Part shown: piece by piece, positions 1 to 51,724 of the stretch | Numbering within the stretch: position 1 is the first letter of the stretch | Layout: every line of letters starts with the position of its first letter | Assembly (NCBI RefSeq): GCF_003144095.1 | Contig: NZ_NSKH01000024.1 | Location: 327,198-391,197 of the forward strand | From: Streptomyces sp. ICBB 8177 | Lineage (GTDB): Bacteria; Actinomycetota; Actinomycetes; Streptomycetales; Streptomycetaceae | Reading direction: 5' to 3' | Length of the DNA stretch: 64,000 nt | Translations under genes and position numbers: made by a program | Notes under the pieces: model-generated | Database searches by the model: none | What the model was told of the DNA's origin: nothing | What the model saw: only the letters and a program-made list of their open reading frames with translations

Positions 1-527
1 CCGCACGCGAAGTGCGCGCCCGAACCTCCGGACGCCACCGACATCCACGGCATACCGGGCATGGCCGGGGGCGAGGGGAGCGCGGGCGCCGACGCCGGGT
101 CGATCCCCGCCTGCCGCAGCAGCCGGGCCGCGTCACCGGGCGTGAGCCGCAGCCCCTGCGCGTGGCAGACCAACCGCACGGCCAGCGCCATCACCCGCTG
201 CGACTGGCCCCCGCCCGCGCCGCCCGCGTTCGAGGCGCTCGCGGCGCACCACTGGCCGGCGCTGAAGAGCATGTGCAACGCCAGCTCGCCGACGAGCAGC
301 AGCGCCGCGATCCCGGGCAGCGAGCGTTCCCGTCCGGCCAGCGAGGCGGCCACGGCGAACACCGCGGCCCAGCCGGCGAGCAGGGTCCACAGCGGTATCG
401 GCCCGCCGGAGGCCATCGCGTGCCCGGCCGCGGACAGCGTGACGCAGACCGCGGCGAACACCGCGGCCCTCATCAGTCGCAGATCGGCGGCGGCGCGCGA
501 GGGGGCAGACATGGCGGGCGTCATCAT
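1..527 (-). CDS. Membrane protein, C-terminus cut off by window edge
   Basis: The minus-strand frame is open from an ATG at 527 to the window edge, so the carboxyl end is missing. A GGAGG lies 8 nt upstream of that ATG; a second ATG follows directly. The visible 175 or so residues show three hydrophobic segments near residues 19-38, 45-64 and 71-90, then a soluble tail containing AARLLRQAGIDP and a Met/Pro-rich stretch. This looks like a small integral membrane protein with a cytoplasmic tail. I do not recognise a named family. It is divergent from the anti-sigma-like ATPase gene at 719. No function is assigned. Confidence 0.75.
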   Translation of the reverse strand, partial: MMTPAMSAPSRAAADLRLMRAAVFAAVCVTLSAAGHAMASGGPIPLWTLLAGWAAVFAVAASLAGRERSLPGIAALLLVGELALHMLFSAGQWCAASASNAGGAGGGQSQRVMALAVRLVCHAQGLRLTPGDAARLLRQAGIDPASAPALPSPPAMPGMPWMSVASGGSGAHFAC

Positions 528-718
528 CCCACCCGCCTCCGGTCCCCCTTACGGCAGGGTGCCCGGCTCGCGCGGGTGCGCGTGCGGTGTCCCTTTACTC
601 CCGTACGCCGGGCCCACGCATCCGCCGAATGAGCGGCATCCCGTCAACACCACGCTTACCGGGTGGCCTTCGCGGCAATACGTAACCGTATGTCGAGCCT
701 GGGTCGGGAGGCTGGAGC

Positions 719-1165
719 ATGAGCATCTGGTGGTCTCTGCACTTGCGGCGCGAGGCCGCGAGCGTGCCGCTCGCCCGCCGACTGCTGCTGGGCACCATGG
801 AGACCGCGGGCGTCGACCCCGACATCTCCTACGACCTGTGCGTCGCCCTGTCCGAGGCGTGTGCCAACGCCGTGGAGCACGCGGGGACGAGCGGCGGCGA
901 CTACCGCGTCACCGCGCACATCGAGGGCGACCGCTGCCGCATCGAGGTGACCGACTCCGGCCCCGGGTTCACCCCCGGCCTGGAGCGGCGTCCGGTGCGG
1001 GCGCTGCCCAGCAGGCCCCAGCAGGCCGAGCACGGCCGCGGGATGTTCCTCATCGAGGCGCTCGTGGACCACGTGCAGTTCCAGAACCGGCCGGGGCGCG
1101 GGGCGGTCGTGAGCTTCGACAAGGTCCTCAAGTGGCGCGACGGGGCGCTGCTGAAGGCGTCCTGA
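719..1165 (+). CDS. RsbW-like anti-sigma factor / ATP-binding protein
   Basis: A 148-residue stand-alone HATPase_c (GHKL) domain protein. The N box EACANAVEHA lies near residues 46-55, the G1 motif DSGPGF near 79-84 and the G2 motif GRGMFLIEAL near 106-115, as in the RsbW/SpoIIAB kinase family. Such proteins bind ATP and either sequester sigma-B-type factors or phosphorylate STAS antagonists. The ATG at 719 has a GGGAGG 7 nt upstream. A SpoIIE-type phosphatase (2856-4403) and a second HATPase protein (7699-8301) lie nearby, as expected for streptomycete partner-switching modules. No sigma factor or antagonist gene adjoins it, so its partners are unknown. Confidence 0.85.
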   Translation: MSIWWSLHLRREAASVPLARRLLLGTMETAGVDPDISYDLCVALSEACANAVEHAGTSGGDYRVTAHIEGDRCRIEVTDSGPGFTPGLERRPVRALPSRPQQAEHGRGMFLIEALVDHVQFQNRPGRGAVVSFDKVLKWRDGALLKAS

Positions 1166-1173
1166 CGCGCGGC

Positions 1174-1219
1174 GGGCCGGACCGCCCGACGCCCGAAGGC
1201 GGAGGTGGCGGTCCGGCCC
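1174..1219. terminator. Bidirectional terminator hairpin
   Basis: A perfect 13-bp inverted repeat (1174-1186 with 1207-1219) and a 20-nt loop lie between the convergent stops of the anti-sigma gene (1165) and aminopeptidase P (1235). There is no T-run, as is common for actinobacterial terminators. Confidence 0.75.
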
Positions 1220-1234
1220 GGAGGCGGTGCGGGC

Positions 1235-2698
1235 TCAGGCGCGCAGGTCGCGCATCCAGGCCTCGACGTCGGCGGAGCGGCGGGGCAGGGCGGCGGACAG
1301 ATTGCGGTTGCCGTCCTCGGTGACCAGGATGTCGTCCTCGATCCGCACGCCGATGCCGCGGTACTCGGCCGGGACGGTCAGGTCGTCGGCCTGGAAGTAC
1401 AGCCCCGGCTCGACGGTGAGGACCATGCCGGGCTCCAGGGTGCCGTCCACGTACGACTCGGTGCGCGCCTGGGCGCAGTCGTGGACGTCGAGGCCGAGCA
1501 TGTGGCCGGTGCCGTGCAGGGTCCAGCGGCGCTGGAGGCCGAGTTCCAGGACGCGCTCGACCGGGCCCTCGACCAGGCCCCACTCGACCAGACGGGTGGC
1601 GAGCACGCGCTGGGCGGCGTCGTGGAAGTCGCGGTACTTCGCGCCGGGGCGCACGGCGGCGATACCGGCCTCCTGCGCCTCGTACACCGCGTCGTAGATC
1701 CTGCGCTGGAGGTCGGTGTACGTACCGGAGACCGGCAGGGTGCGGGTGACGTCGGCGGTGTAGAGGGTGGTGGTCTCCACGCCCGCGTCCAGCAGGAGCA
1801 GTTCACCGGAGCGCACCGGGCCGTCGTTGCGCACCCAGTGCAGCGTGGTGGCGTGCGGGCCGGCGGCGCAGATGCTGCCGTAGCCGACGTCGTTGCCCTC
1901 GACGCGGGCGCGCAGGAAGAAGGTGCCCTCTATGTAGCGCTCGGAGGTGGCCTCGGCACGGTCCAGGACCTTCACCACGTCCTCGAAGCCGCGGACGGTG
2001 GAGTCCACGGCGTTCTGGAGTTCGCCGATCTCCCACTCGTCCTTGACCAGGCGCAGTTCGCTCAGGAAGGCCTTGAACTCCTCGTCGCGCTCGGCGGTGA
2101 CCTTGTCCGTGAGGGCGGCCTCGATGCCGGCGTCCTGGCCGCGCACGACGCGCACCGGACCGGTGGCGGCGGCGAGCCGCTCCGGGAGGGTGCGCACGTC
2201 CTCGCAGGGGATGCCGAGCAGCTGCGCGCCCTCGGCCAGGCTGTGGCGGCGGCCGACCCACAGCTCGCCCTGGCCGTCCAGCCAGAACTCGCCGTTCTCC
2301 CGGTCGGAACGCGGCAGCAGGTAGGCGGTCGCCTCGTGGCCGGTCGCGGTCGGCTCCAGCACCAGCACGGCGTCGTGGGTCTGGTCGCCGGTCAGGTGCA
2401 CGTACTCGGACGAGGCGCGGAACGGGTACTCGGTGTCGTTGGACCGGGTCCGCAGGTTGCCCGCCGGGATCACCAGCCGCTCGCCCGGGAACCGCGCGGA
2501 CAACGCGGCGCGCCGGCGCGCGGTGTGCGGCGCCTGGGCGATCGGCTCCAGGTCGCGCTGCTCGGTGTCCGCCCAGCCCGACTTCATCGAAGCCGCCAGC
2601 TCGTCGGAGACGGCCGGGTACAGGCCGTTCTTGCGCTGCTTGATGGGCTCGTCGCCCTCCGGGGTCTCCGGAGTCTCCTGGGCTCGGTCCTCGGCCAC
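1235..2698 (-). CDS. pepP: Xaa-Pro aminopeptidase (aminopeptidase P)
   Basis: A 487-residue M24-family metallopeptidase that removes the N-terminal residue from peptides with proline in second position. The creatinase N-terminal domain comes first and the pita-bread catalytic domain follows. The dinuclear metal ligands are visible: Asp near 304 and 316 (LLDAGVETTTLYTADVTRT), His near 399 (HGTGHMLGLDVHD), Glu near 430 (VEPGLYF) and Glu near 454 (RIEDDILVT). The GTG at 2698 is chosen because a GGAGG sits 7 nt upstream; the earlier in-frame GTG at 2716 would put that site inside the gene. A perfect TTGTCCACA box (minus strand) lies 65 bp upstream. Confidence 0.93.
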   Translation of the reverse strand: MAEDRAQETPETPEGDEPIKQRKNGLYPAVSDELAASMKSGWADTEQRDLEPIAQAPHTARRRAALSARFPGERLVIPAGNLRTRSNDTEYPFRASSEYVHLTGDQTHDAVLVLEPTATGHEATAYLLPRSDRENGEFWLDGQGELWVGRRHSLAEGAQLLGIPCEDVRTLPERLAAATGPVRVVRGQDAGIEAALTDKVTAERDEEFKAFLSELRLVKDEWEIGELQNAVDSTVRGFEDVVKVLDRAEATSERYIEGTFFLRARVEGNDVGYGSICAAGPHATTLHWVRNDGPVRSGELLLLDAGVETTTLYTADVTRTLPVSGTYTDLQRRIYDAVYEAQEAGIAAVRPGAKYRDFHDAAQRVLATRLVEWGLVEGPVERVLELGLQRRWTLHGTGHMLGLDVHDCAQARTESYVDGTLEPGMVLTVEPGLYFQADDLTVPAEYRGIGVRIEDDILVTEDGNRNLSAALPRRSADVEAWMRDLRA

Positions 2699-2762
2699 GT
2701 CAATGCCTCCTCGCACTAGACGCTCCCATCGTAAGCGCGTACGAGAAGACCCCTGCCGGGCC

Positions 2763-2771
2763 TGTGGACAA
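2763..2771 (-). promoter_or_regulatory. Perfect DnaA-box-like nonamer TTGTCCACA
   Basis: Reads TTGTCCACA on the minus strand, 65 bp upstream of the pepP start, in the gap between pepP and the SpoIIE phosphatase gene. One of seven perfect copies in this window, all outside coding sequence. Confidence 0.6.
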
Positions 2772-2855
2772 CTCTCCGGAAACCGCTTCCCGTCAGGCAG
2801 GACGCGGATGCGGGGTGGGAGCGGCGGGCGGGGGGCCGGACCCGCGCGGGCGGAC

Positions 2856-4403
2856 TCAGTCGAACCGGGCCGCCAGCAGCACCACGTCGTCCCCGGCCGT
2901 GGCGCCGCCCAGTGGGTCGCGGGCGTCCGCGTCGTCGCGCGGCGGCAGGCAGGCCCGCAGCACGTGGTCGACGAGGAGTTCGGGGTCCTCCAGCGCGGAG
3001 CGCGGGGCGTTGGCCGCGGCGGCGTGCAACATCGCGAAGGCCCGGTCGACCGGTTCGCCGGTGCGGTGCAGCAGCCCGTCGGTGTAGAGGAGGACGGTCT
3101 CGCCGCGGGCGGCGGTGAACTCGACGCTGGGCGCCTCCCAGCAACTGAGCATGCCCAGCGGCGCGGACAGCGTGGTCTCCACGTACTCCGCCCGGCGCGC
3201 GCCGACCACCAGCGGGGGGCAGTGCCCGGCTCCGGCCAGCAGCAGCTTGCGCCCGGCCGGTTCGACGTAGGCGAACAGCGCGGTGGCGCTGCGGGCCGGT
3301 TCCGTGACGCGCAGCAGCAGTTCGAGGTCGGACAGCACGGCGACCGGGTCCTCGCCCTCCATCACCGCGTACGCCCGCAGCGAGGCGCGCAGTCGGCCCA
3401 TCGCGGCGATCGCGCTCGGCCCCGAGCCGGTCACGCTGCCGACCGACAGCCCGAGCGCGGCCTCGGGAAGCGGCAGCGCGTCGTACCAGTCGCCGCCGCC
3501 GTGCGCGGACGTGCGGTGCCGCACCGCCATCCGCACACCGGGCACCCGGGGCAGCCTGCTGGGCAGCAGTTCCTCGCGCAGGACGGCGACAGTGGAGTGG
3601 GCCCGGGCCAGGTCGAGCTGGCGGGCGATGTGCTCGGCCGCGTACCGCACGTACAGGCCCACGAGGTGGCGTTGGCGGTCGGTGGGGCGGGCGGGCTCGT
3701 CGTAGAGCCAGACGACGGCGCCGAGACGTGCGGAGGCGGTGGCCAGCCGCAGTCCGTAGCTGGCGGCGAACCCGAGCTGGGCGGCGACCTCGCGGTGGCG
3801 CGCGTCGAGCCCGTGCTCGTCGGCGAGGTCGGGGTGGATCATCTCGTCGCGGGCGTCGTCGGCCGCGCTGTCCAGCAGGTGTCCGTGGACGGCGGAGTCG
3901 GACGGCACGGTCTCGATCGTGCCGAGGTCGGAACGGAGCAGGCCGAAACCGAGCGAGGTGCGCGGGCCGAGTCCGTCGGAGGGGTGGAGCACGACGAGGC
4001 CGCGGCGGGCGCCCACCAGACCCGCGCCGGTGCGCAGCAGTTCGTGCAGCGCGGCGTCGAGAGTGGTGGTGGCGGTGAGGCGTTCGGTCAGTTCGTGCAG
4101 GGTGGTGAGGTCGGAGACCCAGGCCGCCAGCCGGTCCTGGATGACGGCGAGTTGCTCGAACGGCCGGACGATCTCCGCGAAGTCGTCGGGCGCCTGGGCG
4201 CTGCCGCCCGGGGCCGGCACGGTGCGGGTGACCAGGACGGTTCCGCTGGCCGTCGCGGCGGAGGGAGGCGGTGCGGGGACGGTGTCGGCCGGGGAACCGG
4301 CTTCGTGATCGGGCCGCTGCGCCTTCGCACGCGCGTCAGTGTCTGCGACATCGCTAATGGCCTGATCGATTCCGGCCACTTTCGGAAGGCGGGCCGCGGT
4401 CAT
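2856..4403 (-). CDS. GAF/SpoIIE-family PP2C-type protein phosphatase
   Basis: A 515-residue soluble phosphatase. A GAF-like sensory region (about residues 80-250, with an LHELTERLTA helix before it) precedes a SpoIIE/PPM domain. The PPM motifs are present in order: GGGDWYDALPL (metal Asp), SVGSVTGSG, ATALFAYVEP, GHCPPLVV, LLYTDGLLHR and the terminal GDDVVLLAARF. The family dephosphorylates STAS anti-sigma antagonists and thereby frees sigma factors. In SVGSVTGSGPSA the usual second metal Asp of GDVxGxG is Ser, so activity may be altered. The frame continues upstream to 4559; I chose the ATG at 4403 because the upstream codons fall in lower-GC sequence with weaker codon bias, but the start is uncertain. 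Confidence 0.85.
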   Translation of the reverse strand: MTAARLPKVAGIDQAISDVADTDARAKAQRPDHEAGSPADTVPAPPPSAATASGTVLVTRTVPAPGGSAQAPDDFAEIVRPFEQLAVIQDRLAAWVSDLTTLHELTERLTATTTLDAALHELLRTGAGLVGARRGLVVLHPSDGLGPRTSLGFGLLRSDLGTIETVPSDSAVHGHLLDSAADDARDEMIHPDLADEHGLDARHREVAAQLGFAASYGLRLATASARLGAVVWLYDEPARPTDRQRHLVGLYVRYAAEHIARQLDLARAHSTVAVLREELLPSRLPRVPGVRMAVRHRTSAHGGGDWYDALPLPEAALGLSVGSVTGSGPSAIAAMGRLRASLRAYAVMEGEDPVAVLSDLELLLRVTEPARSATALFAYVEPAGRKLLLAGAGHCPPLVVGARRAEYVETTLSAPLGMLSCWEAPSVEFTAARGETVLLYTDGLLHRTGEPVDRAFAMLHAAAANAPRSALEDPELLVDHVLRACLPPRDDADARDPLGGATAGDDVVLLAARFD

Positions 4404-5187
4404 GAGCGGGGGCTTCCCGGGCGAATCCGCACACCAAGCGAGATGCCCGGATTTCTCCTGTTTTGGCGGCATTTCAAAGCACCGATCGGGGTCGTCGGCG
4501 AACTGCCCTTTTCTGTCAATAGCATCGCAAACCCCCATGTCATGCTGCGCCGCTATCAATACCTCCCTTGTACACGCATGGAAGAGGACATGTCCAGGAT
4601 TGCGCAGGTAGCCACAGGGGTGTCTCGCACACCACGCGCCCCGGCGGCGAACCGGGCGCCAACCGGCGTACGATGACCGAAAACAGCCTCCTCAGACGTC
4701 AATTCGCGGTCGACTGAGGGCATTCGACAGCGCGTCATATCCGCGTCGGCGGGTACGTACGAGGTGGGACAGGCAGCGAGGCCACCCGACCGGTCCGGTC
4801 TGTTTTCCGGCACCCCGGTCGGCCCTCCCGGCCGTACCGGCGGGAATCCGAGCCGGTCCGGGACGGGCTCGCGTCGCGGAACCGAAGCGGCGCCAAGTGG
4901 CAGGAACCCGTTGCCCGGCCCGCGCGTCCTACACGAAGACGGCCGGTTCACTGGCGGCGAGGCGGGGCCCGCTACACCTGCGGAACCATGGACGATCCAG
5001 CGCCACTGAGAGTCAAGAGCCATGTGAGCGCCACCCCCCGCCACGTTCCACGCTCGGGCCACGGCGTGATGCGCTGCCTTGCACGGCGGTGTGCTGCCCT
5101 CATGGGGGAGTCGCGGTACTGGTTGGTCGCGGTACTGGTTAGCGGTAACGGGCAGATCCAAGCGTTCACGGAAAGGAACGAGCGCTG
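4404..5187. other. Intergenic region, about 780 bp, with a short direct repeat
   Basis: I see no convincing gene here. Part of it (about 4440-4600) is AT-richer than the surroundings and may hold promoters for the leftward phosphatase gene. A 12-bp direct repeat GCGGTACTGGTT occurs at 5113-5124 and 5129-5140, roughly 50-75 bp before the start at 5188, with a third partial copy GCGGTAACGG at 5142. It could be an operator or activator site for the downstream gene. Confidence 0.4.
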
Positions 5188-5958
5188 ATGCGCGAGATCC
5201 TCGGAAGGCGACGCAGGTGGTTCATGGGGTCCAGGCGGCAGAAGGGGACGCAGCCATGGGAGGCGGCGCTGCTGTGCGCCACGCGGTGGCGGTGGCCGGT
5301 GCTGCCGGGGGTGGGGCTCGACCGGCGCGCGGAGGCGCTCGGCGCGCGCGGCGCGGAGCGCGAGCGCACGGCCGCCTATCCGCCCGGCGAGGACGGCACG
5401 CCGCACGCGCCCGGCGACGGCCCGCCCGCGCGGGTCTGCGCCTGCCCGCACCCGGACTGCGCTGTTCCCGGCGCCCACCCGCACGACCCGGGGCTGCTGG
5501 CGGCCACCACCGACGCCCGGATGGTCGAGTGGTGGTGGACCCGGCGGCCTGACGCGCCCGTACTGCTCGCCACCGGTGGGCCGGTCTCGGCGGTCAGCCT
5601 GCCCGCCACCGCCGGCGTCCGCGCGCTGCGCACCCTGGAACGCATGGGGGTGCGGCTCGGCCCGGTCGTCGCCACGCCCACCCGCTGCGCGCTGCTCGTC
5701 GCGCCTTACGAGTTCGAGCAGTTGGGCGAGTTGCTCGCCCGGCACGAGTGGGTGCCGTCCTCGCTGCGGTACCACGGACGCGGCGGCTACCTGGTGCTGC
5801 CGCCGTCGCGGATCGCCTCCGGCGGCGTCGGCTGGGAGCGCGCCCCGCAGCCCGGCCCCGGCGGATCGGCGCCATGGCTGCCGAGGATCGAGGTCATCGT
5901 GGACAGCCTGGTGGCGGCGGGCACTCGGGAGCCGGACGAGAACCGCCTCGCGTACTGA
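5188..5958 (+). CDS. Primase-polymerase-like domain protein, catalytic acids missing
   Basis: A 256-residue protein with the layout of the N-terminal domain of bifunctional primase/polymerase proteins: AALLCATRWRWPVLPG near residues 26-41, a Cys/His segment CACPHPDC near 82-89, and the later block where the family usually reads V-D-x-D. Here that block reads VSAVSLPAT, so the two metal-binding aspartates appear absent. An AEP-type fold may survive without polymerase activity. The ATG at 5188 has AAAGGA about 10 nt upstream. The gene is chromosomal and unrelated in position to the true primase-polymerase of the integrated element (15003-15896). Streptomycetes carry such solitary genes; their role is not known to me. 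Confidence 0.7.
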   Translation: MREILGRRRRWFMGSRRQKGTQPWEAALLCATRWRWPVLPGVGLDRRAEALGARGAERERTAAYPPGEDGTPHAPGDGPPARVCACPHPDCAVPGAHPHDPGLLAATTDARMVEWWWTRRPDAPVLLATGGPVSAVSLPATAGVRALRTLERMGVRLGPVVATPTRCALLVAPYEFEQLGELLARHEWVPSSLRYHGRGGYLVLPPSRIASGGVGWERAPQPGPGGSAPWLPRIEVIVDSLVAAGTREPDENRLAY

Positions 5959-11396: not shown

Positions 11397-11483
11397 GGAG
11401 GGTTGCCCGAGCGGCCTAAGGGAACAGTCTTGAAAACTGTCGTGGCGGCAACGCCACCGTGGGTTCAAATCCCACACCCTCCG
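11397..11483 (+). tRNA. tRNA-Ser (anticodon TGA)
   Basis: An 87-nt class II tRNA. Acceptor GGAGGGT (11397-11403) pairs with ACCCTCC (11476-11482), discriminator G11483. Anticodon stem ACAGT/ACTGT encloses the loop CTTGAAA with anticodon TGA at 11431-11433; a long variable arm and the T loop GGGTTCAAATCCC follow. CCA is not encoded. The gene is complete although it is the integration target: the element restores its own 3' part. Confidence 0.97.
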
Positions 11484-11484
11484 C
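11429..11484 (+). repeat. attL core (3' part of tRNA-Ser)
   Basis: Fifty-six bp, from the first anticodon-loop base to the base after the discriminator, identical to 30180-30235. The flanking bases differ on both sides (T11428 versus C30179; G11485 versus A30236). Confidence 0.95.
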
Positions 11485-13412: not shown

Positions 13413-14642
13413 CTACGCGGCGGGGCCGGTGGTGGCGGTTCCCTCGGGGGCGTGGCGGATCTCGGAGGGGCTTTCCGCCACGGATTCACCCCCGCTGACC
13501 TGCGGTGTGGCGGACGTGGCGGACGTGGCGGATTTCTGAGGGGGTGGGGGGCAGTAACGGGCCCAGGCGTCGGCGAGGTCTTCGGCGTAGTAGCCCTTGG
13601 GGAACCCGGAGGTGGTCCGGATGCCGCGGGGCTTGATGGGCTTGCCCGCCTCGGTGACGTAGCTGCTGAGCATCTTCGACAGGGCCCTGGGGGTGAGGGG
13701 CTTGCCGTTGAAGTCGCACCAGGGCGCGTCGTCCATACCGTTGAGGACTTCGAGGACGACGACGGTGGGAATGCGTTCGGCTCCGCAGAACACCAGGTCA
13801 CGCAGGTCGGTCAACAGGCGGATACCGAGGGAGGCTTCGTCGTCCACGGTCGCGGCGGCGACCAGTTCGACGCAGGCGGCGCGGGCGCGCTGAGGCCAGG
13901 TTCCACCTGCGGCATCGGCGATGGCGAGCAGGGGTTCCCACACGTCGGCGGGCCGGTCGGTCACGCCCTCGGGCATGGTCGGCCAAGTGCCTTCCACGGT
14001 CGCGCGGGCAGTCTCGGCCCAGCGGCCGAGGCGGTCGCGCAGGGCGTGGCCTTCCTTCTCGTGGACGCGCTGCCGGTAGGGCTCCACGCTCTCGTTCGGC
14101 GCCCGGCGGCGCATGCGGACGATGACCGAGCGGGTCAGGATCGTGTCGGGCAGCGAGCCGAGTCCGGCCATGGCGACCGCGCAGTACGAGGGAAACGCCT
14201 GCACGCTCTGAGAACTCCCGTCGCCGACGCACCGGTACGTGACACCGGAGCGGCGGTGCCCGGCGTTGAGGAACCCGCGCAGTTCCTCGTTCTCCCCCGC
14301 CTTCGGGCCGAATACGGTGTCGATCTCGTCAAACAGGATGGTCGGGCGTCCGTCCATGCCGGATACCGCGCGAAAGAGCGCGGCCGGGGAGGCGTTGACC
14401 GCCACCATCGGCTGCGGCACGAGCGTTTCCACGATCTCCAGCGCCCGCGACTTGCCGGACCCGGGCTCCGGGGAGAGGAAGGCCAGGCGCGGGGTGGAGT
14501 CGAAAGCGTCGAGCATGTGGGCGTGCGCGTCCCACAGCGCCACGGCGACGTACGCGGCCGGGCCAGGAAAGACGTTGAAGCGGCGGTGGAACGCCTCGAT
14601 CTCGTCAAGCAGCGCGGCGCCGTCCTCGGGCGTGGTGCTCAC
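13413..14642 (-). CDS. DUF3631 ATPase, replication-associated
   Basis: A 409-residue P-loop ATPase. Walker A EPGSGKS is at residues 59-65 and a Walker B-like ILFDEIDTVFG near 102-112, followed by the DUF3631 C-terminal region. In AICEs and phages DUF3631 proteins accompany primase-polymerases and act as candidate replicative helicases. The GTG at 14642 has GGGAGG 7 nt upstream. It overlaps the upstream small gene by 38 nt, indicating a coupled replication operon. The last 45 residues are low-complexity (SATSATSAT) and encoded by one arm of the inverted repeat. Confidence 0.85.
   Translation of the reverse strand: MSTTPEDGAALLDEIEAFHRRFNVFPGPAAYVAVALWDAHAHMLDAFDSTPRLAFLSPEPGSGKSRALEIVETLVPQPMVAVNASPAALFRAVSGMDGRPTILFDEIDTVFGPKAGENEELRGFLNAGHRRSGVTYRCVGDGSSQSVQAFPSYCAVAMAGLGSLPDTILTRSVIVRMRRRAPNESVEPYRQRVHEKEGHALRDRLGRWAETARATVEGTWPTMPEGVTDRPADVWEPLLAIADAAGGTWPQRARAACVELVAAATVDDEASLGIRLLTDLRDLVFCGAERIPTVVVLEVLNGMDDAPWCDFNGKPLTPRALSKMLSSYVTEAGKPIKPRGIRTTSGFPKGYYAEDLADAWARYCPPPPQKSATSATSATPQVSGGESVAESPSEIRHAPEGTATTGPAA
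13495..13534 (+). repeat. Right arm of the 39/40-bp inverted repeat
   Basis: Partner of 13326-13364; the 130-bp space between arms holds further GTGGCGGA copies near 13378, 13397 and 13452. This arm overlaps the 3' end of the DUF3631 gene, where it encodes the SATSATSAT tail. Confidence 0.9.
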
Positions 14643-15006
14643 AGTCGGGCCTCCCTTCGGTGCTGGTCGTGCTGGCAGTGCGCAGCGGGCAGGCGGTGCG
14701 GTGGTCGGCGTGGGCGGCGATGAGGGCTTGGACCTGGCGGACACCGACCGCGGTTTCGTCCCGGCCGCAGGCGCACCAGGAGTGGGCCGTGGGCTGGTCG
14801 GTGCGGTAGCGCGGGGCGATCACGTGCAGCCACGCCACCGGGGCCCGAACGATGGTGACTTGGCGCGGGTCAGGGCGAAGTGCAGAGCGGACGCCCTGAC
14901 GGGCGACGACCTTCGGCCCGCCCACGCCCGCCCGGACCCCGGCCAGTTCGGCGGGGCGCGGCTGGTCCGGGGTGGCGGTGATGCTTTTCAGGCGGGGGGC
15001 GGTCAT
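14605..15006 (-). CDS. Small AICE protein with Cys/His zinc-like motif
   Basis: A 133-residue basic protein. A C-terminal block HSWCACGRDETAVG followed by HADHRTACPLR supplies a C-x-C...H...H...C pattern that could bind zinc. Its ATG at 15006 overlaps the primase-polymerase stop (ATGA), and its end runs 38 nt into the DUF3631 gene, so it is part of the same coupled unit. I recall similar small proteins between primase and helicase genes of other actinobacterial elements, but no function is known to me. The fused-frame tail after CPLR may be poorly conserved. Confidence 0.7.
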   Translation of the reverse strand: MTAPRLKSITATPDQPRPAELAGVRAGVGGPKVVARQGVRSALRPDPRQVTIVRAPVAWLHVIAPRYRTDQPTAHSWCACGRDETAVGVRQVQALIAAHADHRTACPLRTASTTSTEGRPDCEHHARGRRRAA

Positions 15007-24180: not shown

Positions 24181-24654
24181 CTAGACGGCGACGATGAGCA
24201 GCGCGGCGACCAGCAGCCACAGGTGATGCCACGACTGGTCCAGGGCGTAGGCGCCGGTCCCCAGCGTCGGCGCGTAACCGCCCTCGGCGGTCGCGGGGGC
24301 CTTCGGGTGAGCGGGCGTGCCCAGTTCGTAGAACTCGCTGTTGCGGGTGACCTTGGCCAGCCAGGCGAGCGTGCTACGGCGGTCGGCCCACCAGTGCGAG
24401 GCCGCGTCGACCGCGAACCCCATCACCAGCCCGATCACGCGCAGGTGCAGCCCGAGCACGCCGGTAACCAGCGCCAGCAACACGGCCTTCGTGAGCGTCA
24501 GCGTCGCAACGTGGCGGGCATCGGCGAGACGACCCGGCCAGCCCGGACGGCCCTTGTCCGCCGCCTGACGCGAGGTCTGCACCCAGTGGTCACCCACGCT
24601 GTGGGCGACGAACAACGCCGCGAAGACCGTGGCGAACACGGCGGGCGTGCCCAT
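24181..24654 (-). CDS. DUF3307 membrane protein
   Basis: A 157-residue protein with four hydrophobic segments. The N-terminal block FAALFVAHSVGDHWVQTSRQA (His/Asp/Gln pattern) and the later DAASHWWADRR match DUF3307, a family of small membrane proteins found on actinobacterial elements. ATG 24654 has GAGGTGG 6 nt upstream, and it overlaps the stop of the short gene before it by one base (TGATG). Its role in transfer is inferred only from context. Confidence 0.75.
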   Translation of the reverse strand: MGTPAVFATVFAALFVAHSVGDHWVQTSRQAADKGRPGWPGRLADARHVATLTLTKAVLLALVTGVLGLHLRVIGLVMGFAVDAASHWWADRRSTLAWLAKVTRNSEFYELGTPAHPKAPATAEGGYAPTLGTGAYALDQSWHHLWLLVAALLIVAV

Positions 24655-24758
24655 CACCGGCCACCTCGTACGGTGGCGTCGTTCTCGCTGCGGCGGTTGG
24701 CCTCCTTGACCTTCTCCGACAGTTCCTTGCGGTCCTGCTCGGTCATACTGAGCAACAC
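24654..24758 (-). CDS. 34-residue peptide, first gene of the transfer operon
   Basis: GTG 24758 sits 4 nt after a perfect AGGAGG, and the frame (LLSMTEQDRKELSEKVKEAN...) ends in TGATG overlapping the DUF3307 start. The product is charged and probably helical. The strong ribosome site and the coupling argue that it is translated, perhaps mainly to couple the leader to downstream genes. Confidence 0.6.
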   Translation of the reverse strand: MLLSMTEQDRKELSEKVKEANRRSENDATVRGGR

Positions 24759-24784: not shown

Positions 24785-24818
24785 GCGGCGCCCAGGGCTT
24801 AGGCCCCCTGGGCGCCGC
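24785..24818. terminator. Strong leader hairpin upstream of the transfer operon
   Basis: Perfect 13-bp stem (24785-24797 with 24806-24818), loop of 8. It lies 17-27 nt upstream of the first AGGAGG in the leftward transcript, so it could be an attenuator. No T-run follows. Confidence 0.65.
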
Positions 24819-24835: not shown

Positions 24836-24862
24836 CAGGGCCTGACGCGCTGCCAGGCCCTG
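24836..24862. other. Leader hairpin overlapping the tRNA-like 3' end
   Basis: Perfect 9-bp inverted repeat CAGGGCCTG/CAGGCCCTG (24836-24844 with 24854-24862). Its right arm shares two bases with the CCA terminus of the tRNA-like sequence, so the two folds compete slightly or stack. Confidence 0.55.
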
Positions 24863-24949
24863 GCGCCCTGGCCGGGAGTCGAACCCGGCCTGCGACCATC
24901 AGGGCTGTAGAAACACGGCTTCACCGGCGCATCCGTTGCCACGGGCGCC
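24861..24949 (-). ncRNA. tRNA-like sequence with encoded CCA, in operon leader
   Basis: Minus strand, about 89 nt. A canonical T arm CCGGG-TTCGACT-CCCGG (24872-24888) is extended by two more pairs, and the 3' end reads GGGCGCCA with a CCA terminus. The 5' end GGCGCCC pairs perfectly with GGGCGCC; alternatively GCCC-G-TGG pairs with CCAGGGC with one bulged G, which gives the standard G73-CCA register. A D-loop-like AACGGAT and a variable-arm hairpin CCTG/CAGG are present, giving class II length. I find no acceptable anticodon stem. It is probably a tRNA mimic or decayed tRNA rather than a decoder. Confidence 0.55.
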
Positions 24950-25380
24950 GATCCCGAGCCGGTCAGTCGGGCGCGTCATCGTCACTGCTCTGACGCCAGC
25001 AGGGCGGCCCGCACCGCGCGAGTTCCACATCTGCGTGGAGTCGGTGCGTGTGGCATGTGATGCCGCCGACGACATCACCCGGTCGTCGCGGGGGCGGTCT
25101 TCTCATCCCGCCACATGCGTTGGGGCCTGCGCTGTATCTCCCCACGCCCGGTTCGGGCGACGCCTGCCAAGCGCGTAGGGGGAGAGCGGTGTTCATCCCG
25201 GCGGTTTGCCCCCAGACCCTCGCCCTGGGCACCTGCCACGACCGCCGCTCTCGCGTCAGCCCCGCATGATCACTGTTCAGTTCTCAAGAAGCACTGCTCA
25301 TGGCCCATCGGTGAGGCACCGACCAAAGGCCGGAGGGAGTCACGGAGAGATCCCCGCCGGTAGCTCCGGGTTGCCTCGGC

Positions 25381-25525: not shown

Positions 25526-26242
25526 CTACATCGCGTAGGTGTCCACCTGCTCGAAGAGAGCAGCGGGTGTCACACCCTCCTCGCACACAAGAGGACGGCC
25601 AGCCTGGTCAAGAGCCGTATGCAGGAGCACGGCCACGGGCGCTTCCTCGGCCAGAGCCAGGTGGTGGGCTTCGGTCTCCGTGGCGAGGCGGACCGTGGTC
25701 ACGTCTACGCCCTCTACCGGGTAGCGGTCGGTCTGCCGCCGCACGTAGCGGGTAGTCCCCTCGGCGATCGGCGCGGCTTGCGCAAGCCGCGGTGACGCCT
25801 CGGCCACGTCAGGCGGGAACCACGCTTCCACGTAGCTGTGAGGACTACCGTCCGGGAGCTGGAGTACGCGAGCGCGTCGCAGCGCAGGAACCCCGGCGTC
25901 CATGCGTAGCGCAGCGGCCACGCGCGGCGGGGGCTCCGCCCAGTCCGGGACGCCGATGCGAAGGAAGGGCATGCCGCCGGTCACGCGTGCCGATCCCGCT
26001 CGACGCGAACCCGCCGGCCGGGCCACGGGGGTCTCGGTCACAATGAAGCCGGTCCCCTGCCTGGCCACGACCACGCCGTCGCTGCGGAGCACGTCCATCG
26101 CCTTGATGGCGGTCGCCCGTGAGACCGACCACTGCTCGGCCAGGTCTCGGCCAGAAGGCACTACTTCGCCGGGCCCGAACTCGCCAGCGGCGATGCGAGC
26201 ACGCAGCGACTCCGCGATCTCCTCGTACTTCAGCAGGGCCAT
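25526..26242 (-). CDS. GntR-family repressor of the element
   Basis: A 238-residue GntR/HutC-type regulator. The winged helix is at residues 5-68 (KYEEIAESLRARIAAGEFGPGE, then LAEQWSVSRATAIKAMDVL) and a UTRA-type effector domain follows. KorSA-like GntR proteins repress replication and transfer of AICEs. The ATG at 26242 is chosen over the upstream in-frame start at 26299 because the homologous fold begins at MALLKYEEI and a purine-rich GAGAGAGGG precedes it. Three related palindromes flank the gene (O1, O2, O3), suggesting autoregulation and control of the leftward operon. Confidence 0.88.
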   Translation of the reverse strand: MALLKYEEIAESLRARIAAGEFGPGEVVPSGRDLAEQWSVSRATAIKAMDVLRSDGVVVARQGTGFIVTETPVARPAGSRRAGSARVTGGMPFLRIGVPDWAEPPPRVAAALRMDAGVPALRRARVLQLPDGSPHSYVEAWFPPDVAEASPRLAQAAPIAEGTTRYVRRQTDRYPVEGVDVTTVRLATETEAHHLALAEEAPVAVLLHTALDQAGRPLVCEEGVTPAALFEQVDTYAM

Positions 26243-26260
26243 CGGTTTCCCTCTCTCCAC

Positions 26261-26284
26261 ACTGGACTGGTCCACCGGTACACA
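26261..26284. promoter_or_regulatory. Operator O3 between gntR and divergent methyltransferase
   Basis: ACTGGACTGGT-CC-ACCGGTACACA matches O1 in 10 of 11 bases of the left half and 8 of 11 of the right half. Lies 19 bp before the gntR start and 13 bp before the methyltransferase start, so it can control both. Confidence 0.65.
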
Positions 26285-26297
26285 GGATACTGCCACC

Positions 26298-27104
26298 ATG
26301 GTGAAACCCGACTTGGCTCCATCAGTGGCCCGGTTCTACGGCGAGACTGTGGACGAGGGCACCCGGCTGCGTAGCTCGGCAGACGGCCGCCTTGAGCTGG
26401 AGCGCACGAAGGAACTCCTCCGTCGCTTCCTCCCGCCGGCGCCAGCGCGCGTGCTGGACGTAGGTGGCGCGACTGGCATCCACGCGGAGTGGCTGGTCGA
26501 GGACGGCTACGAAGTAGACCTCGTGGACCCGATCCCCCGCCACGTAGAGCAGGCGTCCGCCATCTGCCGAGCGACGGTGGGTGATGCCCGAGCGCTGGAC
26601 GCCGCCGACGACACCTACGACGCCGTGCTGCTCCTCGGCCCGCTGTACCACCTGCCCGAGGCTAGTGACCGCCTCCAGGCGCTGGCAGAGGCCCGCCGAA
26701 CGGTAAAGCCGGGTGGGTTGATCGCCGCGGCGGCGATCAACCGGTATGCCTCACTCTTCGAGCACGTCACCTACGCCCATCTCCACAAGGAGCGCATCCA
26801 AGCATCGATCGCCAAAATCCTCAGCACGGCGGTTCACCAGGGGCCCGGCTTTACGTTGGCGTACTTCCACCGAGCGGATGAGCTTGCCGGAGAACTCCGC
26901 GAATCGGGACTCAGGGATGTTCAGGTTCTCGGGATCGAGGGCCCGGCGTGGTCCCTCCTAAAGGCTGTCGAGCAACAGCCTGGAGACAGTCCCACCGTTG
27001 ACCTGGTCGATTCGGTAGCTACCGCTGCCAGGATGGCCGAGCCATACCCTGAACTGCTGGCGGCTAGCTCTCATCTGCTCGCAGTCGGAAAGGTCGCATC
27101 CTGA
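26298..27104 (+). CDS. Class I SAM-dependent methyltransferase
   Basis: A 268-residue methyltransferase. Motif I RVLDVGGATGIHAEWL is near residues 50-65, the acidic end of strand 2 in YEVDLVDPIP near 70-79, and motif IV DAVLLLGPLYHLPEA near 107-121. The substrate is unknown; the LGPLYHL block is common in small-molecule or ubiquinone-type methyltransferases of this clan. It is divergent from gntR across operator O3, with a possible GATACT -10 and a very short leader, so the repressor probably controls it. It could be cargo or belong to the regulatory module. Confidence 0.82.
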   Translation: MVKPDLAPSVARFYGETVDEGTRLRSSADGRLELERTKELLRRFLPPAPARVLDVGGATGIHAEWLVEDGYEVDLVDPIPRHVEQASAICRATVGDARALDAADDTYDAVLLLGPLYHLPEASDRLQALAEARRTVKPGGLIAAAAINRYASLFEHVTYAHLHKERIQASIAKILSTAVHQGPGFTLAYFHRADELAGELRESGLRDVQVLGIEGPAWSLLKAVEQQPGDSPTVDLVDSVATAARMAEPYPELLAASSHLLAVGKVAS

Positions 27105-30179: not shown

Positions 30180-30252
30180 CTTGAAAACTGTCGTGGCGGC
30201 AACGCCACCGTGGGTTCAAATCCCACACCCTCCGCAGGTGAACGGCCCCTGA
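30088..30252 (+). CDS. Possible 54-residue ORF crossing attR
   Basis: ATG 30088 lies 8 nt after GGAGGGGG. The frame starts MDQAWPNTVGRLANRKFTAG inside the element, continues through the tRNA-derived attR core and stops in chromosomal sequence at 30252. If expressed, its last third is fixed by tRNA sequence and would change on excision. May be a chance frame. Confidence 0.35.
   Translation: MDQAWPNTVGRLANRKFTAGQAPLAPDVSTPLKTVVAATPPWVQIPHPPQVNGP
30180..30235 (+). repeat. attR core (tRNA-Ser 3' copy)
   Basis: Exact 56-bp copy of 11429-11484; it contains the anticodon-loop to 3' end but no tRNA 5' half, so it is not a gene. Confidence 0.95.
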
Positions 30253-50746: not shown

Positions 50747-51724
50747 TCAGGTGGTCAGCAGAACCTTCCCCACGTGCCCCCCTTCCTCCAGCACCTGGTG
50801 GCCCTGGGCCGCGTCCGCCATCGGGAGTACACGGTCGATGACCGGGCGGACCTGGCCGTTCTCCAGCAGGGGCCAGACGTGTTCGCGTACGGCGGCGATG
50901 ATGGCCGCCTTCTCCCCGAGGGGGCGTCCGCGCAGCGAGGTGGCCGTGACCGCGGCACGCTTGGCCAGCAGCTTGCCCAGGTCGAGTTCGCCCTTGGTGC
51001 CGCCCTGGAGACCGATGACGGCGAGGCGGCCGTTGACAGCGAGGGCGTCGACGTTGCGGCCCAGGTACTTCGCGCCCATGTTGTCGAGGATGACGTCGGC
51101 CTTGGCGCCGTCCGTCGCCTGCTTCAGCTCGGCCACGAAGTCCTGCTCGCGGTAGTTGATGAGGATGTCCGCGCCCAGTTCGCGGCAGCGCTCCAGCTTC
51201 TGCTCGCTGCCCGCGGTCACCGCGACGCGCGCGCCGACCGCCTTGGCGAGCTGGATCGCCATGGTGCCGATACCGCTCGCGCCGCCGTGCACCAGCAGCG
51301 TCTCGCCCGGCCGCAGATGGGCCACCATGAACACGTTCGACCAGACCGTCGCGGTGACTTCGGGCAGCGCGGCGGCGTGCACCAGATCGATCCCCTTGGG
51401 CACGGGCAGGAGTTGGCCGTACGGGACGGCGACCTTCTGCGCGTACCCGCCGCCCGCCAGCAGCGCGCAGACCTCGTCGCCGACCGTCCAGCCGGTGACG
51501 CCCGGGCCGACCTCCGTGATCCGGCCGGAGCACTCCATGCCCGGGTAGACGGAGGCGCCGGGCGGCGGGTCGTAGAAACCCTGACGTTGCAGCAGGTCGG
51601 CGCGGTTGATCGCACTGGCCACCACCTCGACGACCACCTCGCCCTCGCCGGGCACGGGGTCGGGGACCTCGGTCCACACCAGGGCTTCGGGGCCGCCGGG
51701 TTCCGGAATCGTGATCGCGTACAT
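50747..51724 (-). CDS. NAD(P)H:quinone oxidoreductase, zinc-free MDR family
   Basis: A 325-residue quinone-oxidoreductase-like medium-chain dehydrogenase. It carries NRADLLQRQGFYDPPPGAS, the PGMECSGRITEVG region, and the nucleotide fold LLVHGGASGIGTMAIQLAKAVGARV. No catalytic or structural zinc Cys pattern is present. Members reduce quinones or enoyl substrates with NADPH. Two perfect TTGTCCACA boxes lie 38 and 70 bp upstream of its ATG. Confidence 0.92.
   Translation of the reverse strand: MYAITIPEPGGPEALVWTEVPDPVPGEGEVVVEVVASAINRADLLQRQGFYDPPPGASVYPGMECSGRITEVGPGVTGWTVGDEVCALLAGGGYAQKVAVPYGQLLPVPKGIDLVHAAALPEVTATVWSNVFMVAHLRPGETLLVHGGASGIGTMAIQLAKAVGARVAVTAGSEQKLERCRELGADILINYREQDFVAELKQATDGAKADVILDNMGAKYLGRNVDALAVNGRLAVIGLQGGTKGELDLGKLLAKRAAVTATSLRGRPLGEKAAIIAAVREHVWPLLENGQVRPVIDRVLPMADAAQGHQVLEEGGHVGKVLLTT

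Follow-up and report, generated by a model that had tools for sequence, protein, structure and literature searches.

A tRNA-like minihelix in the transfer-operon leader of a Streptomyces integrative element, and its relatives between genes of actinobacterial phages and plasmids: putative signals for RNA processing

What is the tRNA-like sequence in the leader of the transfer operon of an integrative element (AICE) of Streptomyces sp. ICBB 8177, and what might it do there? The preliminary description of the window (the whole stretch of 64,000 nucleotides that was analysed) saw an 89-nt RNA of class II tRNA length with an encoded CCA end. The sequence and its comparison with relatives reduce this to a tRNA-like minihelix (TLS) of 45 nt on the minus strand, which reads, from 24905 to 24861, GCCCUG-AUGGUCGCAGG-CCGGG-UUCGACU-CCCGG-C-CAGGGC-G-CCA. 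The TLS, its parts and its surroundings are as follows.

25526..26299, minus strand: GntR/UTRA regulator gene, upstream of the leader (Pfam).
24968..25081, minus strand: gntR-DTE RNA (RF02989), upstream in the leader; 85.3 bits, cutoff 63.6.
24925..24950, minus strand: hairpin CGGCGCCCGUGGCAACGGAUGCGCCG, which holds most of the 5' acceptor half proposed earlier; from the fold of the 302-nt leader, with counterparts in many of 30 loci (by eye).
24861..24905, minus strand: the TLS, G1 to A76; 61 bits (E 2.4e-8) with covariance model R1 and 63.5 bits with R2, both of whose training sets include the site.
24900..24905, minus strand: TLS acceptor, 5' strand GCCCUG, pairing with 24865-24870.
24889..24899, minus strand: TLS linker AUGGUCGCAGG with a D-loop-like GGU; GGT starts the linker in 29/30 type I rows.
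24872..24888, minus strand: TLS T arm CCGGG-UUCGACU-CCCGG, from the sequence; T-stem pairing probability 0.99-1 in 8/8 contexts tried.
24865..24870, minus strand: TLS acceptor, 3' strand CAGGGC, from the sequence and the alignment with relatives.
24861..24864, minus strand: G73-C74-C75-A76 tail of the TLS, with an encoded CCA that is exceptional within the family.
24838..24860, minus strand: GC-rich hairpin directly 3' of the TLS (sequence, fold).
24785..24818, minus strand: second GC-rich hairpin, before the ribosome binding site (sequence, fold).
24655..24746, minus strand: first open frame downstream of the leader, ~29 aa with the ATG taken as its start (sequence).
24181..24655, minus strand: transfer-operon gene for a DUF3307 protein (Pfam PF11750; the score, 23.0 bits, equals the cutoff of 23).
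11429..11484, no strand assigned: attachment-site-like direct repeat inside tRNA-Ser(TGA), a 56-nt perfect repeat with 30180-30235.
30180..30235, no strand assigned: second copy of the same 56-nt perfect repeat, at the other end of the element.

The TLS is well supported as a natural mimic of the top half of tRNA, with a 6-bp acceptor, a D-loop-like GG, a T arm, a purine at position 73 and C74. The canonical T arm of the preliminary description stands, as do its CCA end (24863-24861, in tRNA register), the location on the strand of the transfer operon and the strong hairpins that follow at once; it had also noted, correctly, that no anticodon stem can be drawn, the acceptor being joined to the T stem by a linker of only 11 nt. 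Acceptor pair 5 is U-A in the window copy and C-G in most relatives, and a seventh pair is often mismatched in the family. Relatives L012, L016 and L017 have kept the GCCCUG/CAGGGC helix beside the T arm, likewise behind gntR-DTE and in the corresponding position. The scores with R1 and R2 place the site in the tRNA-like family, with the qualification that both models were trained with it, and the same holds for the margin in R1 between the TLS (61 bits) and the next-best match in the window (15.8 bits).

The longer reading does not survive. The 89-nt class II fold is hardly above chance (z -1.57; 12/200 shuffles fold as well), and class II length is not a feature of the family. The acceptor proposed for it, GGCGCCC/GGGCGCC, has a pairing probability of 0.98-1 only in an RNA trimmed to exactly 24949-24861, and of 0 in both longer contexts that contain it; in the 302-nt leader fold the GGCGCC stretch of its 5' half pairs inside another hairpin, with counterparts behind gntR-DTE in related loci (by eye). 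A hairpin CCGGnGCCGUGGCAACGGCnCCGG can be discerned by eye behind gntR-DTE in many of the loci L001-L030, and at 24925-24950 of the window; it is outside the Rfam match. The 302-nt leader as a whole folds better than its shuffles (z -4.66, 0/100). In its minimum-energy fold the T arm forms and the TLS acceptor does not; according to the energy model, the acceptor of the window copy competes with neighbouring sequence, its pairing probability varying from 0 to 1 by context, and this probability exceeds 0.5 in 44/82 copies of the family.

None of the established RNA families accounts for the element. At the window TLS, ARAGORN calls neither a tRNA nor a tmRNA, and the Rfam tRNA model (RF00005) remains below its gathering score. 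The tRNA-Sec model (RF01852) gives 15.4 bits against a gathering score of 47, and mascRNA-menRNA (RF01684) a weak 19.9 bits against 42.5; Rfam offers neither a tmRNA nor a T-box match, and its gntR-DTE match ends at 24968, short of the TLS. ARAGORN makes no call at the TLS in 38 AICE-type loci, and no Rfam family reaches its cutoff on the TLS in the window, in 15 loci (14 of AICE type, and L015) or in regions of four phages.

On the minus strand, the GntR/UTRA gene, gntR-DTE, the TLS, the small open frame and the DUF3307 gene follow one another in that order. Small frames like that at 24655..24746 are found in L015 and L027, and hairpins similar to that at 24785..24818 follow the TLS of many relatives (both by eye). 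A second leader module, CGGYTGCCTCC...hairpin...GGGGAGCCG, is present within ~300 nt in 16/30 gntR-DTE loci (L001-L028), for example ~100 nt after gntR-DTE in L004, and is absent from the window leader (by eye). The integrative element also encodes a DUF3631 protein (13413-14744). The 56-nt repeats that bound this element lie at tRNA-Ser(TGA), and the TLS is thus not its attachment site; a candidate role as such was dropped, the repeats lying elsewhere (11429, 30180) and a 141-nt TLS query matching just one place in the genome at E 0.001.

Relatives were sought first where the leader itself recurs. The gntR-DTE RNA is found in 40/394 genomes of the host's family, and a scan requiring a T loop and pairing places a TLS directly behind it in 4/30 loci (the window, L012, L016 and L017) and within ~1 kb in five further loci (L013, L015, L022, L024 and L030), 9/30 in all; matches in L007, L008, L023 and L027 were excluded by eye because acceptor, linker and tail were unfit. 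All nine continue with [A/G]C, at positions that the scan ignores. Model R1, built from these nine, has matches at E 0.1 in 322 of the 394 genomes. Its scores of 39-41 bits are background that comes from the tRNA-Arg(CCG) gene (L100 and L101 examined), and a floor of 42 bits was set for this reason, after the background had been seen. Above it lie 97 places in 69/394 genomes among the matches listed (hand count), of which 38 stretches were examined in detail; in seven genomes two copies above the floor are 0.2-3.4 kb apart (hand count). Two forms recur: type I, with AUGGUCGCA after the acceptor (GGT in 29/30 rows), and type II, with GUGA in 17/47 rows and mostly the loop AUCGAAU. A GC-rich hairpin follows many of the family's copies (by eye). 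The host genome has two more type II mimics outside the window (G000:C9:268-321 and G000:C11:1145585-1145638; L062, L063). L078 and L080 are nearly alike through the end of the mimic and then diverge at once, as if modules had been exchanged (by eye).

Type II elements are matched in 12 Streptomyces plasmid records. NZ_CP108706 has three copies per unit and two units in the record, and pFP11 has one copy, all on the transfer-operon strand. Two other plasmid BLAST matches were dropped: L104, beside an erm gene, in which the scan showed no TLS, and L103, which is a tRNA array. The latter (Nonomuraea sp. NBC_00507 plasmid, ~350-5500) holds 30 tRNA-like scan matches, with C74 in 29/30 and an encoded CCA in 5/30 (by eye). 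Gene context was tested on 44 AICE copies, with a weak outcome: 10 have the end of a coding-like frame no more than 100 nt upstream (2 in the mirrored arrangement), 24 have a frame start within 250 nt on the downstream side, and 2 copies lie inside a coding-like frame. At the level of the phylum, and with a stricter filter, model R2 finds 5/296 genomes, two from the host's family and three candidate others at 40.9-42.8 bits. The occurrence of the TLS is patchy.

The preliminary description had tied the element to AICE leaders; this is too narrow, for it also occurs between genes of plasmids and phages. BLAST with a consensus query returns 34 phage records (20 Mycobacterium, 9 Gordonia, 2 Streptomyces, 2 Salmonella and 1 Bacteroides), and a subset of the actinophages among them was analysed further. 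The operon of Gordonia phage VanLee at 71.6-82.7 kb contains 16 TLS by R2, 11 of which belong to the training set of that model; R2 matches nothing in the first 50 kb. (VanLee, in which more mimics were counted than in any other phage, also has a gene for a Ro-like RNA-binding protein adjoining a tRNA-Arg gene, in L109, 15454-17367.) A strict scan of regions of four phages found TLS in 32/49 gaps and visibly overlooked copies; the criteria were accordingly loosened to five acceptor pairs with at most one G-U, 4/5 T pairs, the T-loop motif and a linker of 6-34, and applied to one operon span in each of six phages, two of them new relative to the strict scan. In the TLS-bearing operons of these six, 42/69 gaps of at least 60 nt (60-450 nt) carry a TLS: 15/17 in VanLee, 7/7 in Cafasso, 7/7 in Morgana, 7/14 in Indlulamithi, 3/10 in Konstantine and 3/14 in Fowlmouth. 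The six are not six independent cases, since they were picked for their BLAST matches and Cafasso and Morgana are related.

The placement of the phage copies is strongly polar. The loosened scan finds 49 on the sense strand (43 in the counted gaps and 6 elsewhere) and 0 on the antisense strand, against 1.7 per strand in shuffles. The median distance from the preceding stop codon to G1 is 8 nt and that from C72 to the next start is 47 nt, with 36/43 of the latter values between 33 and 53 nt; a hairpin and then a ribosome binding site follow the TLS in fixed order (by eye). In 2/43 copies G1 and the stop codon overlap, and cutting would damage the codon. An intermediate form, GGGTAG-CUC-UGGU-GAGC...CUACCC, lies in a gap of Indlulamithi (by eye).

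Among viral contigs of IMG/VR, a GCCCYG-acceptor pattern matches 104 stretches; 80 of these hold 107 matches against 3 in shuffles, the loci having been preselected for one match each, and where a locus has several matches they are all on one strand in 21/22. In contigs L196, L226 and L228 the mimic-like elements are repeated and have no C74 in their tail. When two viral contigs bearing TLS-like repeats were compared by BLAST, no named phage came up; for L228 there is no named relative. MakoManhole has three TLS; on 8-9 kb stretches of five of its cluster DR relatives, R2 reaches 18.9 bits at best and finds none. Cluster DR phages carry repeats, according to the portion of PMC9302106 that describes them, and their sequence differs from the TLS. 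On phi80, R2 has no match. Exact-pattern scans, with 75 matches of which ARAGORN called 44 tRNAs, are excluded from the counts; L127, L141, L147 and L159, which came from them, entered the search that yielded the alignment considered next.

That alignment (A3) comprises 82 matches, with 81 distinct rows, and 99.2% of its cells are paired, a figure to be read with the fact that A3 is fitted to the model and that the scans themselves select for pairing. Changes on both sides occur in 9/11 pairs, which 0/500 shuffles reach. The covariation score of 0.404 compares with 0.096 for shuffles and with no more than 0.076 on sliding. Five loci picked by the protein gp89 and not by their RNA have T stems CCAGG, CGCGG, TCGGG, GCAGG and GAGGG, all of which pair; their acceptors are GGGTAG/CTACCC in three, GGGCGG/CCGCCC in one and degenerate in L363 (by eye). 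A covariance-model search for relatives, proposed at the outset, thus found conservation and stem covariation, not the lack of both that would have spoken against the element.

The tail of the TLS resembles that of host tRNA genes in one particular respect. The 43 phage copies in gaps have a purine at 73 in 42, C74 in 42 and C75 in 0, all at positions that the scan does not use. GG occurs within the first six linker nucleotides in 40/43, against 21.4 expected from shuffled linkers (0/2000 shuffles as high). In the copies found with the covariance models, C74 is present in 45/45 of AICE type and 37/37 from phages and other sources, a count that leans, the model knowing this column. C75, present in the window, is found in 4/45 and 0/37, respectively. 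An encoded CCA, which the preliminary description had made a defining trait, is real in the window copy; as a family feature it fails (2/45, the window included, and 0/37). Host tRNA genes (30 of 63 matches examined) have C74 in 30/30, C75 in 11/30 and an encoded CCA in 4/30. The pattern in mimics and host tRNA genes together indicates that the mimics follow, at position 74, the rule of tRNA genes that lack CCA. Acceptor with T stem-loop, purine 73 and C74, which are features of RNase P substrates, are all present by sequence and covariation; C75 of the RCC contact is not general in the family and is lacking in phages. The C74 of the mimics fits the RCC contact of RNase P RNA as given in the relevant part of PMC10465520.

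Phages of the L5 type (cluster A2) have a larger relative of the TLS before gene 89. Seven sequences fold as a three-arm cloverleaf, in which 17/35 predicted pairs are changed on both sides in at least one sequence; six of the seven were selected for GGGTAGCTC, the T arm and CTACCC. The tRNA-Sec model (RF01852) gives 22.1 bits on the SWU1 relative, against a gathering score of 47. The excerpts of PMC5712189 that deal with the L5 promoter Pleft (start 51,672) describe an extremely abundant and stable RNA of ~500 nt: ~90% of transcripts end at 51,140-51,190 with no evident terminator, smaller species arise by processing, and D29, StarStuff, Kampy, SWU1 and RedRock have a similar RNA. The same excerpts report that L5 deletions 51,195-51,619 and 51,195-51,407 were unrecovered and that deletion 51,407-51,619 is viable (PMC5712189). 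For SWU1 (L346), the Pleft start was set 35 nt behind the -35 box, counted from its first base; measured from this presumed position, C72 lies 538 nt away and G1 447 nt. In 16/18 relatives the upstream-most promoter match is 517-564 nt from C72; in the remaining pair, which includes D29, the first match of the pattern is nearer (437 and 409 nt). Coordinates transferred from SWU1 and its relatives predict the L5 element at ~51,225-51,134, across the reported 3' end, and its 5' part would lie inside both unrecovered deletions, which remove other sequence too. The L5/D29 leader RNA is described as an abundant noncoding RNA with an unexplained 3' end, so far as the excerpted account goes (PMC5712189); the leaders of relatives carry the cloverleaf form before gene 89, and this form would set the 3' end of the stable leader RNA in L5-type phages.

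The covarying tRNA-like structure, the sense-strand location between phage genes and the tRNA-gene-like C74 bear directly on what the TLS may be for. The reading that we favour, and hold to be somewhat better than an even bet, is that it serves as a processing signal in polycistronic RNA, a mimic of tRNA at which tRNA enzymes of the host cut. Among the suggestions of the preliminary description, a mimic recruiting RNase P, or a processing signal, probably fits best: the TLS resembles substrates made of acceptor and T stem, and it obeys the rule at position 74. The TLS is located in untranslated parts of polycistronic RNA; in phages it usually follows a stop codon closely and precedes a hairpin and the next ribosome binding site. 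Host RNase P would cut before G1, which structure, purine 73 and C74 make the most likely event; after position 73, an RNase Z cut or trimming may act. CCA is disfavoured by RNase Z, and most copies lack it, which points, more weakly, to a cut by that enzyme after 73. A long transcript would so be divided into units, the downstream part beginning with a compact, protected end. In the window, the TLS would separate the GntR/gntR-DTE leader from the transfer-operon mRNA, and the transfer-operon message would begin with the mimic. Larger relatives retain the whole cloverleaf. The wider proposition, that tRNA mimics ranging from the cloverleaf to a 42-nt minihelix punctuate polycistronic RNAs of actinobacterial phages, plasmids and integrative elements, that RNase P and RNase Z make the ends, and that this explains the 3' end in L5-type phages, could in our judgement go either way. 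Bacterial RNase P does cut hairpins of acceptor and T stem in vitro (PMC11143913), and the contacts of its RNA include RCC and the T stem-loop (PMC11143913, PMC10465520), as far as the consulted portions of these sources go. The processing reading has against it the acceptor of the window copy, which the energy model favours in some contexts and not in others, the lack of C75 in phages, the two phage copies in which a cut would fall in a stop codon, the patchy occurrence and the weak gene-context result in AICEs.

Might the TLS act without being cut? As a 5'-UTR element, its tRNA-like fold could protect the downstream message or aid the loading of ribosomes or of a tRNA-binding protein. The narrow spacing from C72 to the start codon (33-53 nt in 36/43) and the fixed order of hairpin and ribosome binding site (by eye) would suit such a role, but the upstream stop codon is also close (median 8 nt), the tRNA-gene-like conservation of C74 points to tRNA processing, and the L5 RNA ends near the predicted site (the excerpted PMC5712189), so that we regard it as unlikely. 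Cutting might, on the other hand, serve a function in trans, excised mini-tRNAs accumulating as decoys that occupy host tRNA enzymes, EF-Tu or tRNA nucleases. The 16 copies in the single VanLee operon could be understood in this way, as could the abundance and stability of the L5 leader RNA and the toxicity of its region (as excerpted in PMC5712189). Yet the copies are spread, mostly one per gap and in no array, and C75 in 0/43 phage copies means that the CCA end is not encoded; we judge a decoy improbable.

The remaining alternatives place the function in DNA or in a larger RNA. The 3' ends of tRNAs are often used by integrative elements and phages, and tRNA 3' halves could conceivably be integrase targets, as alternative attachment sites or recombination points: the window element uses tRNA-Ser, and L078 and L080 are alike up to the TLS and different after it (by eye). 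The attachment repeats lie elsewhere, however, and the asymmetric linker, the 49:0 sense bias and the diversified stems suit RNA, which makes this explanation very improbable. The full-length class II mimic or T-box-like control of the preliminary description is scarcely credible. The T arm and the CCA are there, and the 89-nt piece does fold in that way when cut out, but its acceptor is unformed in longer context, its fold hardly beats shuffles, and no T-box model of Rfam matches. Synthetase recruitment, also suggested, finds no support, and an anticodon arm cannot be drawn.

Return, then, to the TLS as a processing signal and to its possible counterparts. In mitochondrial transcripts, tRNAs punctuate: they are tRNA-shaped cutting signals between coding units. 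These are real tRNAs, whereas the short forms of the TLS lack an anticodon arm and most copies lack CCA. The mascRNA-menRNA family (RF01684) is a minimal tRNA-like RNA of the animal nucleus whose 5' end is made by RNase P. The gntR-DTE RNA shares the leader, directly upstream of the TLS, but is a separate element. The tRNA-like domain of tmRNA is likewise an upper half of tRNA with a 5' end made by RNase P (PMC3985003, in the part consulted). Similar in form are AT1 and pATSer, model substrates which establish that acceptor and T stem-loop suffice for bacterial RNase P (from the relevant portions of PMC11143913 and PMC10465520); these are synthetic, whereas the TLS is natural. Phage RNAs other than tRNAs are also known RNase P substrates, namely phi80 M3 RNA and P1/P7 C4 RNA (same portions of PMC11143913 and PMC10465520). 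The M3 RNA is annotated on the strand opposite its neighbour genes and C4 is an antisense RNA, in contrast to the TLS, which is sense-strand, repeated and intergenic. Among the open-licence literature matches listed, tRNA-like elements between genes of phages or AICEs are not described. Both tRNA-like structures and the cutting of phage RNA by RNase P are already known kinds; the new part is the repeated, sense-strand mimics between genes of bacterial mobile elements.

A tRNA finder and the Rfam tRNA model overlooked the TLS in the loci tested. If the proposed reading is true, actinobacterial phages and conjugative elements cut their long transcripts with the host's tRNA-maturation enzymes by way of stripped-down mimics, in parallel to mitochondria, where real tRNAs do the marking. 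This would account for separate messages from the genes of one long operon, would supply a testable cause for the end of the L5/D29 leader RNA, and would make the family a source of many natural minimal RNase P substrates.
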